This document shows positions 46,560-53,960 of a DNA stretch of 64,000 nucleotides, in pieces (position 1 is the first letter of the stretch; every line of letters begins with the position of its first letter). This DNA comes from Hymenopellis radicata (Eukaryota; Basidiomycota; Agaricomycetes; Agaricales; Physalacriaceae): the NCBI GenBank assembly GCA_015501595.1, contig JADNRX010000049.1, positions 124,001 through 188,000 on the forward strand, in the 5' to 3' direction. A program made the position numbers and the translations under genes. The notes under the pieces were generated by a model. It was not told where the DNA came from, did not search any database, and saw nothing but the letters and a program-made list of their open reading frames with translations.

Positions 46560-47640
46560 ACTTCTCTATGTACAGTATCTAACAGGTTTGCTCCGTACCC
46601 GATAAATACACACCGAGTTTAACAAGATCAGAACCCCTCATAGTGCCCTCTGATCGAATGCTATGGCAGCGAGCGTATGTAAACTCTTCGGCAACAGACA
46701 CCGACTTCCGTGAAAAATAGCACTCAGCGGAGGCTAGGATGAGATGGTTTGGACATACGTCGTGCAAGTCTAGGAACGTTTGAAGGGCTCGACTCGACCA
46801 TCGCAATCGTGTATTCGCATTCACCACGACTCCGAGAGAGGTAAACTAAAGGAGTTGATCATCATCGTCAACATCTTACTCGAGGCGCGGTACCCCAGCT
46901 TTACAAAATCAATGTAGAGTCGCTCGGTTGCCTCAGTGTTATATCCGGCTGCAGACGCCGTGGGATTTAATCATTGGGATGTAGTCGAGCATGGAGTGGA
47001 TTTTCGGGATGTTAAAGTGGTCACCCACGCCAGTATCCACGAAGATGTGTTTGTATCCGTGGAAGGTGCGTAGAGCGGTCTCATGGCTTCAAGCGACGAA
47101 TCGGATAATGAACTCGAGGACTGTACTACTGAACGGACGCATATCACCACGTTCTTCGACGCGGCACCTGCTATTACCGTCCAGAAGACCTTTTCCATTT
47201 CCCATTTCCTTGTATTGTTCCTGTCCACTGCGTGACAAACAAGATGCCTTTCTTAAAATGGCGGAGATAAGTGCCTGGAAGCGCTTATCGATATCTGTCT
47301 TGTTCACGTTCGATGCCTCGGTGGCCCGTGACTTCCTTATGTGGTCCTTGAACACACCCTTGTGAAGCTGGTGGAAAATATCGGGGGTAAATTGGGTAAA
47401 ACAGTTGAATATGTCGCAGTGCGGTAAGTCTTTCCACGAAGGCACAACAGATCGCAGCGCTAACATCGTGTATTCGCCAGGTTGGTACCCAGCGGCGACG
47501 GCCTGCAGTATGTCGAGTGTTGTCTTTACCTCACGAAGAGGATCATGGTCTGACCCTTACACATTGGACGTTTCAGCATGGTGGGAGAAGAAAGTCGGTA
47601 AGCTGACACTGACCGTTTATGGCAAGTCAGTCTAAAACAA
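46560..47640 (-). pseudogene. Plavaka-type (CMC/CACTA) transposase, decayed
   Basis: The minus strand contains the signature block LPHCDIFNCFTQFTPDIFHQ followed by LHKGVFKDHI, then KVFWTVIAGA, VICVRSVV, FHGYKHIFVDTGVGDHFNIP and KIHSMLDY. These occur in this order in Plavaka transposases, which are abundant in basidiomycetes. Frames change at least four times (for example near 47180 and 47090) and stops follow the KIHSML block. The 5' cysteine-rich part is missing. Termini not found. Confidence 0.85.
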
Positions 47641-48200
47641 GTCAAGTCAAAGCTCAACGAGTAGTCAAAAAGCAGGTGCTAGGCGACCTCTTTCTCCGGT
47701 TCCTCCGAATTCGACCCACGCTGTGGTTCAGAAAAAGCGCAGAGTCGGATGCGTTCGATTTGGAACGAGACACAGGGGAAAAAGAAGCGTAGGGTCATAC
47801 CCAAAAGGCTGCTGCCACCTGTAAGTGCTCGTACTTTGTCTAATATTAATGTCAGCTTCTTTCTGACCCATGCTAGCGCAAGCGCGTACTAACCATGAAC
47901 ATGCCAACGTTCAGCTGCTGCGCAGAAGGACAGCGCCGCGGCCAAGTACAAACAGGAGAAACACAAATGTGCGTGGATTTCTCCTCGTGATACATTCTAC
48001 GTCTGAATTTGTTTAGGCGACACGGAGCAGGTCATTGTTACCGATAACCATGCACGATGAGTATATTGATGCACATGGTCGTGACCTGCCGCAGGAAGGG
48101 TGTTACCAGCGAGAAGGTGAACGACAGTATCAGTATCAGCAAGAACGCGGACGACTGACTTGAACTGGACTACAAGATGTTTTCATTCGTGGTTTCCAGG
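47641..48200. other. no recognised exon before the EF-hand fragment
   Basis: The first exons expected for a myosin light chain are not visible. The sequence contains intron-like CAG sites but no EF-hand loop. Confidence 0.3.
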
Positions 48201-48427
48201 GGTTCGACAAGGAGCGCAACGGGTTCATCGGTGCCGGAGAGCTGCGCTATATCCTAACACAGCTTGGCGAGAAGATGTCCGATGAGGAGGTGGACGAGCT
48301 GCTAAAGGGTGTGCAGATTGGCACGCACGTTGTCCTATCATCTCTCCGCTTCTTTCAACCTGACTTGTTTTGCAGTGATGGGAACGTAAACTACGAGTCA
48401 TTCGTGCGCACGATTCTGAGCCAGTGA
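48201..48427 (+). pseudogene. 3' fragment of a myosin essential light chain (Cdc4/Mlc1 type)
   Basis: After a CAG acceptor at 48200 the frame reads FDKERNGFIGAGELRYIL, then QLGEKMSDEEVDELLKG and, after a second intron, DGNVNYESFVRTILSQ and TGA. This is the C-terminal EF-hand half of the cytokinesis light chain that binds the IQ motif of myosin II/V. The first Ca2+ loop lacks the full set of acidic ligands, as is normal in this family. The second intron appears to start with GC (GCACGT) rather than GT. N-terminal exons were not found upstream, so this is probably a fragment. Confidence 0.7.
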
Positions 48428-49125: not shown

Positions 49126-51249
49126 TTAGGACTGTGAAATTGTAATAGTCTCTCTAAAGTATTTACCATTTCCAATTGTGCCTACAAATTTGAAACGGGA
49201 GCAAACTTTGGTGGGCGGACGGGGAATAAACTTGCGCTGATCAGGACACCATACCACCAACTCTCCCTTTTCTCCTCGAGTGGCCTTGCATCCTGAAAGA
49301 TACAGCCAGTCGCAGAAGCTGCATATCACTTCCTGCTCCTCCTTCTTGGAAACGAGTTGCCAAGACTTGAGAGTATGGCACTCAGGGCATCCTAGAGGAA
49401 CTGGAACGCCCAGCTGAATTTTAGTGGGCAAGTGGTAGACATAGCGGTGGTGTTCTTTGTTCAGGAGGACACATATCACTGAGTGAAGAGCGATCCTTTT
49501 GTCCTCCGTTAGAGCATTCGCAATCGACCTCTCGTAGGAATGTCCCAGGATATAGTGTTGTTCTAACACCTCGTTAAGAAAATTGATGGTAAAGGTTGGG
49601 TGCAACTTGTCCCGTTCAAAGCCAATGATGACTTTGAAGAGGCTATGAGAGTTCAGATGACACATTATTACTTGAAGAAGGACACATACTTTTGACAATA
49701 GAAACTCTCCAGAGCCTTCCGAGACTCTGAAATGAGCCATGGCCCGCCGCAGCATGCAAGAACCAACGTCGCATCTGCCGCGCTCAGTGCCTGTGCGATC
49801 TCACTCTGGGGAGCAAAGAGAAATGGCAAGAACTATTGTACATGTAAGCTGAAAGCGGAAGACATCATAAAACAGCCCAACACACCTGGTCGATAGCATA
49901 GGCTCTCGGAGGGCTGTCACCATGACTTGGAGCTCCGTGGAGATCCCCCAAATCAGGGGTAGAGTGTGTGTGGATGAAGACGATGATTCGAGTGAAACTG
50001 GAAGAAGCTGTGAATCACTCTTAGACTACAAGAGACAAGCATACCTGATGGAGAGCAACTTCTGTCCAAGACGGGATAGAGTTCTTGTAAAGGTCGCCAT
50101 TGATGCTGCGTCCCAGACAGGTTGAATGGCACATCACAGAAAACAAGAGCGTTTCGTGGGTCCATAGACTTCATAAAAAAGGTGTATAACCGATTGTAAG
50201 CCGCATCAGCAGGACCACCCTCTACTCGGATTGTAACCAGTCGGAAGTTGATGATAACCAGGCCTGAGCTGTCCGACGGGGCAAAGCTCGTCCACGTTGT
50301 CGTTCCATTGGCAATGGTTGTCGCGTAATTTTTACCATCAATGGTCAAGCCCTTGATGGCGTCAAATATTAGTTGAAGAGATCATAGCACCTCTTACCCT
50401 CCAAGGCTCCTGCTTGGGCTTCGGCCTCTTTTCACCTTTAAGAGAGGATCTGAAAGCAGCCTCGTCCCGATAGTACTGGCTCACATGACAGTGAGCACAT
50501 TTAAAGGTTGCTGCCATTAAATCCAGGTCACAGTGGACAGTGATACAACCCTTCGGCGCCTCGGAATGAGTGCTTGCCCGTTGATAACAATACGCTCTCG
50601 GGCATATATCACATCCAATGAGCTCTCCACCCTCCTGGCACATACAGCACACCTTTATATGAATGTCAGCCAAGAAAAGACCAGAACAACACAAACAAAC
50701 CAGGTTTGAGAGCTGAACATCGGTGGTAGTGGATGGAAGATGAAGGGTAAGTGGATCAAAGGGAACACCCCTCATGGTATACTGTAGCGTTTCAACCGTA
50801 TATTCTCATATCGGGTCACGAAGCCTCATGAACCGAACCTATACATATTGCATATTGCATCACAGAGCCTCCTGGCCAGGCACAGGCATCCAAAAGTGGA
50901 AATTTCAGGTCCTGCCTGCAGCGGGCCTGTCCAAATAAGGGAATTTAAGGGTCTATGAACCTATTGGCTGTAAGTTCACAGCATATCGGGTCACAAGCCG
51001 CGAACCTATGGTTGAAACGCTACAGTACCCACATCTGGGTAATTTGGTTATGTCCACCAAGAGACGCGGTTCTAAGCATCCCAGAGCTCGCGCCCTTCTA
51101 GTCGTCGGCGTTCTTGTGGACCGGGTCACAATGCGAATCGTATCTTGTGTCACTTTTTTTTTGCTGGTGTTTGTGCTGGGAGCAAGAATATTGGCCCGTT
51201 GACCTGGCCCTCCAGTGGCCTTGCGAGCGGTTTGCTTTGTACGAGCCAT
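49126..51249 (-). CDS. histone-H3-tail / zinc-finger fusion protein, split by a MITE
   Basis: The first exon starts at 51249 with M-ARTKQTARKATGG, identical to residues 1-13 of histone H3 except Ser10 to Ala, and continues with a basic linker (TRSTRTPTTRRARALG). The rest of the gene starts at 50775. A PHD-like finger (VCCMCQEGGELIGCDICPRA...KCAHCHV) is followed by a conserved alpha/beta domain across introns: VEGGPADAAYNRLY, SMDPRNALVFCDVPFNL, FTRIIVFIHTHSTPDLGDLH, ATLVLACCGGPW and KLHPTFTINFLNEVLEQHY. A second Cys pair set (GCPECH...CSFC) lies near the end, with TAA/TGA at 49126. Introns of 47-55 nt join in frame, for example the one at about 49692-49646. Between the two parts lies a 244-bp MITE. 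Its CTACAG end could act as a splice acceptor, so the fusion may still be expressed. The family seems basidiomycete-specific; its function is unknown to me. A chromatin role is inferred from the H3 mimic and finger. Confidence 0.7.
50782..51025. mobile_element. Tc1/mariner-like MITE, 244 bp
   Basis: Terminal inverted repeats CTGTAGCGTTTCAACC at both ends are flanked by TA on each side (50780-50781 and 51026-51027), the target of Tc1/mariner transposons. A second inverted pair lies just inside (CATATCGGGTCAC and its inverse at about 50814 and 50981). No coding capacity. It lies five bases from the ATG-like triplet at 50775 of the zinc-finger part. Confidence 0.85.
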
Positions 51250-51426
51250 GAGTGGGAAGAAGTGGACGAATTGGACGAAAGTGGCACTAGACGCGTTGAT
51301 TGACCACGTGGAAGAAAATTTTGGCGCTCCGACCTCGGTCGTGACTCGTCGACCTTTCATCCGGATATCCCATCAGCACCTTGGCCAGCTGCACATCGAT
51401 GGCAGGACGGTCTCTGTCTCAAATAT

Positions 51427-51785
51427 TTCCGATGGTTTTCGTTTCAAATGAACGAACTCGCTGCCTCAAACAGGCGGGACCATCTGGACGTTGCCTCTCT
51501 CTTTCCGATGGTTTTCGTTTCAAATGAACGAACTTGCTGCCTCAAACAGGCGGGACCATCTGGACGTTGCCTCTCTCTTTCCGATGGTTTTCGTTTCAAA
51601 TGAACGAACTCGCTGCCTCAAACAGGCGGGACCATCTGGACGTTGCCTCTCTCTTTCCGATGGTTTTCGTTTCAAATGAACGAACTCGCTGCCTCAAACA
51701 GGCGGGACCATCTGGACGTTGCCTCTATATTTCCGATGGTTTTCGTTTCAAATGAACGAACTCGCTGCCTCAAACAGGCGGGACC
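51427..51785. repeat. 76-bp minisatellite, about 4.7 copies
   Basis: Units starting TTCCGATGGTTTTCG lie at 51427, 51503, 51579, 51655 and 51731 and are almost identical. 76 is not a multiple of three, so the overlapping ORFs with repeated ELAASNRRDHLDV are artefacts. It lies 180 bases upstream of the H3-tail start codon. Confidence 0.95.
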
Positions 51786-52639: not shown

Positions 52640-53200
52640 ACGGCACGGCTTTCCCTGGAGGAGAAGCTGGGTTTAACGCGGGATTATATTTCGCGACTCG
52701 GACTGACATGGAACGAGGTGGAGTACAGGATGTACGAGATCCCGTCTCGTAGTGAGAAAGCGGGCGGAGAAGCGTGGCATGCAGGCTATCCTGACGAAAC
52801 TGAGGGACGACCCAGTGTAAGTCGTCCGTTTGTTTCATCGTAAAAACCGTCTTGCTTAACCTGATGTTTTAGCTCCTTCGTATTCCGGGCAGGCCGTGGA
52901 CCCCGTCCTTCTAGGCGTTCCCACGTATTTCGATGTCATTCCGAAAAAGCGCGCTCGAGATCTGCGGCTGATCAGAGGCAAGCTGGATTCTGACAAGTAC
53001 GAGACGATAGAGGCGCTCGAGGAGGATATGGCGCTCATGGTCGACAATGCCATAACGTTCAACGGCCTCCAGTCGGACGTGGGCGCTGGTTGCTGTGGCG
53101 TTGCGTCGCATGCAGCAGTGGAGGTCTAGCCAGGACAAGACGAGGAAGGACGTTGATAAGGGTACCCCACAACCGAACAAGAAGGCGAAGTATGTCTGAT
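52640..53200 (+). pseudogene. bromodomain fragment (TAF2-like C-terminus)
   Basis: A leading block SLEEKLGLTRDYISRLGLTW is followed, after a frame change and an intron at about 52818-52872 (GTAAGT...TAG), by a bromodomain end: DPVLLGVPTYFDVIPKK, KLDSDKYETIEALEEDM and NAITFNGLQSDVG, with the asparagine that contacts acetyl-lysine in ITFNG. One base too many after SDVGA shifts the frame; the original continues ALRRMQQWRSSQDK and ends KGTPQPNKKAK. A C-terminal bromodomain of this sort occurs in fungal TAF2 (TFIID). Multiple shifts make this a relic. Confidence 0.65.
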
Positions 53201-53429
53201 ATGGAACTTTGATACAATTATTACATGAGTGATTGGCGAAGGGTATAAGTATGATGAGGATGAGGATGCAGTGGGTAAAAACAGTGTAGTGTCAATCAGT
53301 AATGCGCAGAAGAGAAAAAATGATGTGAGATATGTTAAAAAAAGCCCCGCCTCCTACCTGTCGGGCCCCAGTTCTATTAGAGTATTTGATTCTTCTTCCG
53401 GTGTGTCTTTTTGATTCATCCAACGGTCA

Positions 53430-53960
53430 GGTATCTAGATGTGAGTAATTAGAAATCATGCGTAGGAAGAGGACGAGGACGTGAGACAATACGAGAGGGA
53501 AGTAACGCTCCATGGCGCTGATAAACCTTCGATACTGCCTGGGTGTGACGATGGTGGGCTCGCCTCTGCCAGCGGCTCCGAGGAACGCGGATTCTTTCGC
53601 CCAGCTCTCCAACTTCTTATCCCACGTATATGTGCGAATGTAGTCGACTATGCCCACAACGAGTTCGTTGTTTTCCATGACCAGCAAGTTCATTTGAGTC
53701 GACTTCGCTTTCCCATGGCCTGATCCATGATCGGTCTTTCGGAAAGTGAGCTTGTAGATGCCGAACACTTTCGCGAGAAGGGTGGGTCGCTGGAAGTATC
53801 GTCAGCTTCTTTGCAGGGTCTGTAAAGGATTTCGACGTACATCAGCTGAAACAGCCGAGGTCGAATTAGGCAGGAGCAAATGTCTCCACGGTCTCACCTC
53901 GGGTCGGGACATTTCCTTTGCGATGAAACGGTCGTCTTTGGATAGGTTAGAATTGTGTAG
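53430..53960 (-). pseudogene. FAB1: FAB1 (PtdIns3P 5-kinase) C-terminal fragment with internal deletion
   Basis: Fab1/PIKfyve makes PtdIns(3,5)P2 on endosome/vacuole membranes. The minus strand reads SKDDRFIAKEMSRPEV near 53940, then (frame change) [20 protein letters not shown], then NLLVMEN joined directly to [20 protein letters not shown] and [18 protein letters not shown]. In functional kinases the DLKGS and MDYS segments with catalytic residues lie between LLVMEN and NELVVG. They are absent, so about 90-100 residues were deleted in frame. Plus-strand ORFs here are shadows. Confidence 0.8.

Follow-up and report, generated by a model that had tools for sequence, protein, structure and literature searches.

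A near-exact histone H3 tail at the locus of a predicted caspase-like protein in the mushroom Hymenopellis radicata

Results

Features of the locus

The window analysed here is a 64,000-nucleotide stretch (contig C840:124001-188000) of the 75.5-Mb assembly of Hymenopellis radicata (Physalacriaceae), and it contains a reverse-strand locus that encodes a near-exact copy of the N terminus of histone H3, a finger resembling a plant homeodomain (PHD) finger and a domain with a predicted caspase fold (Table 1). A miniature inverted-repeat transposable element (MITE) separates the tail copy from the rest. The public gene model at this locus, P0001, lacks the tail; the only homologue found, P0002, is a 571-residue protein of Lentinula edodes (Omphalotaceae).

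The tail frame opens at an ATG (51249-51247, reverse strand) and reads MARTKQTARKATGG, continuing PGQRANILAPSTNTSKKK. Compared with residues 1-13 of H3, ARTKQTARKATGG is identical at 12 of 13 positions, the sole change being S10A, and among solved sequences H3 tails come nearest (best E 0.0011). Beyond Gly13 the frame departs from H3, and a Pfam scan of a joined tail-finger model gave no histone match; this model, used also for the paralogue search and one protein search below, is misframed around the His motif, where P0001 is correct. Both readings made in the initial annotation, namely that the first 13 residues of H3 are copied with only Ser10 replaced by Ala and that the likeness ends there, are borne out by these data. 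By a rough estimate that assumes a 6% match probability per residue, 6e-8 genome sites would be expected to match at 12 or more of the 13 positions after any ATG; this expectation and the similar tail in P0002 rule out a chance origin.

The finger of P0001 finds its nearest solved sequences in the PHD fingers of CHD4 (E 3.4e-4) and AIRE (E 2.9e-3), while that of P0002 weakly matches Mi2-beta (E 0.6). A two-row profile placed AIRE and Mi2-beta/CHD4 at E 0.27-0.4, behind a 6-cysteine protein at 0.25, and Pfam scans of P0001 and P0002 did not call a PHD domain. The ligand pattern is C8 rather than C4HC3, with Cys47 at the position expected for His. The acidic residue by which AIRE and BHC80 read unmodified K4 is absent from the finger of P0001, in which H3 reading would be putative.

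For the main domain, fold comparison returned a caspase fold in 47 of the 50 matches listed, and comparison with a library of viral folds ranked a weak, metacaspase-like match second (E 6.4e-3). His314 and Cys363 of P0002 lie at strand ends in its predicted model and align with His227 and Cys281 of P0001, for which a structure model alone was unusable (mean pLDDT, the predicted local distance difference test, of 36). Neither protein matched Pfam CHAT or C14 up to E 10. We take the main domain to be, by prediction, a caspase fold with a His/Cys pair. The initial annotation had named a PHD-like finger and a 'conserved unknown domain' downstream of the tail: the likeness to CHD4 and AIRE partly sustains the former, though with a profile E of at least 0.25, a C8 pattern and no Pfam call, and the latter is the domain with the predicted caspase fold, a likeness that had been missed.

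Table 1 Features of the H3-tail locus (window positions)
Feature	Position	Strand	Remarks
C-terminal part	49129..49428	-	CxxC pair (Cys386, Cys389)
Predicted caspase-like domain	49429..50264	-	introns included; His227 49966-49964, Cys281 49751-49749
PHD-like finger	50482..50652	-	eight Cys common with P0002 (P0001 residues 27, 30, 39, 42, 47, 61, 77, 80)
Post-MITE frame	50701..50779	-	runs to intron; P0001 ATG at 50775
MITE	50780..51027	.	248 bp, 26-nt inverted ends, TA ends; separates tail from finger
Post-tail linker frame	51028..51207	-	open as far as the MITE
H3-tail copy	51208..51249	-	Met + ARTKQTARKATGG = H3 1-13, S10A
76-bp tandem repeat	51426..51785	.	4.7 copies, 98% matches; upstream of tail exon

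The locus is flanked on one side by a Plavaka transposase piece (47089-47556, reverse strand) and an EF-hand protein (48164-48427, forward), and on the other by a bromodomain (52860-53129, forward) and a PIP5K-type kinase piece (53427-53801, reverse). No gasdermin gene was seen by Pfam in seven neighbouring frames, which was no real search for gasdermins.

A homologue in Lentinula edodes

A search with the tail-less P0001 scored 5018 proteins and, besides P0001 itself, matched P0002 alone (E = 1e-3, with 21% identity across 81%; pairwise E = 8e-12). Its N terminus reads MAKAKGFSGGRMTKQTAQKSTGGPAP, and it carries both an H3-like tail and a finger, the combination for which a search of homologues had been proposed in the initial annotation. 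In the full alignment of the P0001 locus with P0002 (129 of 464 aligned residues identical, 28%), the best conserved 12-column stretch is the tail itself (TKQTARKATGGP/TKQTAQKSTGGP, 10 of 12), with the His motif at 9 of 12. The tail is followed by the first finger Cys after 99 residues in the window protein and 111 in P0002. Similarity over tail and linker together was equalled in 1 of 2000 shuffles; for the linker alone ('RSTRxP') 728 of 2000 shuffles did as well, so that its likeness lacks significance. At H3 position 14 both proteins carry Pro, a point in favour of shared descent of the tails over two captures. Since so distant a relative, from shiitake, carries a similar tail, the mimicry looks inherited rather than accidental at the level of sequence.

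The joined-model query matched one of 7995 scored proteins, P0001 itself, and in the H. radicata genome no locus but its own at E <= 0.001 (2 candidates scored). P0002 gave no match in that genome, the window locus included, and the search was therefore insensitive. All protein searches were word-limited, with P0001 among the matches each time, so that the absence of further relatives proves little.

The element between tail and finger

Nearly full-length matches to the MITE occur at 40 other sites, 39 of them at 90-98% identity and one at 72% (40 of 261 candidates scored); because the copies are so alike, the element is probably young. Left unspliced, the tail frame closes within it after 98 residues (stop 50955-50953), and P0001 begins four bases downstream, leaving the tail out of the annotated protein. 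Joining the flanks at one TA yields an open frame that runs from the tail to the next intron before the finger. In the sequenced genome the MITE stands between the tail exon and the remainder of the gene, and the two parts would be joined today only where splicing removes the element. The tail exon had initially been described as leading into the finger exons; the finger does follow, and it was the MITE between them that escaped notice. A related element (79% alike) lies in an apparent intron of a histone H3 gene (L049 1009-1258, contig C391).

Relation to histone H3 genes and other tail copies

The motif RTKQTAR is encoded at 14 sites in the genome, against none for the reversed control: eight H3-type sites, the window, one on C470, an apparently allelic pair with one site each on C455 and C1335, and two in inverted orientation on C940. 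The exact ARTKQTARK is encoded at 10 sites, eight of which have an H3-type exon 1 (...STGG), followed in six by the H3 core; the remaining two are the window locus and C470. The two sites on C503 and C913 (L003, L008) look like H3 5' fragments with no visible core, the former without an ATG.

At the DNA level the window tail resembles H3 loci over 41 nt at five loci (83-88%) and 29 nt at one (90%), and the similarity does not extend into its flanks. The tail is therefore not a recent histone copy, and a recent H3 duplication is ruled out as its source, the similarity being confined to 41 nt. Its 13 codons differ from each of the nine other ARTKQTARK sites by 4-7 silent changes and one replacement. 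Codon 13 is GGT at those nine sites, which in the H3 genes we read as marking the start of an intron, and GGG in the window, where the frame continues.

The C470 protein (C470:77035 onward, forward strand, L002) has an exact H3 start, ARTKQTARKSTGG. In our reading it splices at the H3 intron position to give MARTKQTARKSTGG-RAPRKQLQAK, beyond which the protein is acidic, non-histone and without a Pfam match; it resembles an H3 paralogue from which the core, but not the tail, has disappeared. At C455:56441 and C1335:12847 (forward strand, L018 and L020), on near-identical contigs that are probably alleles, a frame for a von Willebrand A domain (VWA_3, 1.4e-27) is overlapped by a second open frame with an internal RRTKQTARQSTGGKAPRKQLA, and we read the two frames as one protein. 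The C940 pair (150278, reverse strand, and 188559, forward; L030, L031) comprises inverted genes with several diverged RTKQTARK-like repeats per frame. Beyond the motif, no mutual similarity was seen among the window, C470, C455/C1335 and C940 proteins, for which no systematic comparison was made.

Discussion

We propose, with the balance about even, that the locus represents a protein family of the Agaricales (suborder Marasmiineae, seen in two families) that combines an H3-tail mimic, a PHD-like finger and a caspase-fold domain, in which the tail serves as a docking handle. Readers, writers or erasers of the H3 tail would take it for H3, and the machinery that acts on H3 tails would thereby recruit or regulate the caspase-like protease; a further contact, with chromatin or within the protein itself, may come from the finger. 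This, the most likely mechanism, would resemble that of SNAG-domain repressors: the SNAG domain mimics the H3 tail and occupies LSD1 (PMC5896174). Fungal CHAT proteins are described as acting on gasdermins, in cell death (PMC12881547), which makes a chromatin-coupled protease plausible, if unproven. Several points weigh against this proposal. Membership of the tail in the family is indicated, at the sequence level, by a single homologue, P0002; its copy is not N-terminal and has both R2 and R8 changed; and a query with the two-protein alignment (P0001 and P0002) gave no third protein among 5771 scored.

The strongest alternative, whose probability falls a little short of even, is that the MITE has cut the gene, so that the sequenced allele makes a finger-caspase protein lacking the tail and, at most, a tail peptide of 98 residues, the fusion being ancestral only. 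The end of the tail frame within the MITE, the start of the public model just past it and the likeness of the MITE copies, which suggests a young element, all favour such a split. Against it, 17 hypothetical choices of GT..AG sites would excise the MITE in frame. A split of this kind can be reconciled with the docking proposal, which would then apply to the ancestral protein.

It is also conceivable, though unlikely, that the caspase-like domain is held inactive by binding of the tail to the finger of the same protein, until H3 or a modification of the tail competes. Each species does combine tail and PHD-like finger in a single predicted protein, and CHD4 and AIRE are the finger's nearest solved sequences; however, the finger is C8 and departs from the C4HC3 pattern, the acidic K4 pocket residue is absent, and the tail copy of P0002 has no free N terminus. 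An equally doubtful reading would see in these proteins chromatin-linked caspase-like proteases of mushrooms with the H3 tail as bait, the protease being released when the bait is modified or cut, or displaced from the finger by free H3. If so, they could form a switch for death or defence that responds when histones are tampered with by the cell's own enzymes or those of parasites or mobile elements, and the copies of the H3 tail on three further, unrelated predicted proteins of this genome would reflect the same habit of mimicry.

It is rather improbable that the tail is a functionless relic, a first exon captured from an H3 gene. The genome does contain H3 5' fragments (C503, C913), and many of its H3 exons 1 end at the same codon, but the 13-mer is intact with no H3 similarity in its flanks, and the tail is common to P0002 and the best conserved stretch of the pair. 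Least probable is that the caspase-like domain cuts H3 tails, with its own copy as propeptide or pseudosubstrate: a predicted caspase fold with His and Cys does share a protein with the H3 copy, but the activity is putative, a cleavage motif was not identified here, and position 10 differs between the window protein and P0002.

Known histone mimicry mostly concerns short peptides found in viruses and in some regulators of animals. An almost exact H3 N terminus on a predicted caspase-like protein, kept across two mushroom families, would tie histone-tail signalling to a caspase-type effector in fungi. The initial annotation knew of no fungal family of such build, and among the literature matches listed (titles and abstract openings) we likewise found no description of one with H3 tail, finger and caspase domain. 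Histone mimics and caspase folds are already known, and it is their combination that is new, as far as we have seen.

The window protein shares individual features with several known systems. It matches residues 1-13 of histone H3 except S10, whereas it has no histone fold and its DNA likeness stops at 41 nt. With the PHD fingers of CHD4 and AIRE it has in common a GGELI.CD.CPRAY-type stretch, but it carries eight Cys and no His ligand, and P0002 has an insertion. The predicted fold and the His/Cys positions are those of caspases and CHAT proteases, which have NLR or repeat domains where the window protein has a finger and an H3 tail, with no Pfam match. Closest in design are the SNAG-domain repressors GFI1 and SNAI1, which also bear an H3-like N terminus on a zinc-finger protein; the window protein differs from them in matching H3 at 12 of 13 residues and in carrying a predicted caspase-like domain.
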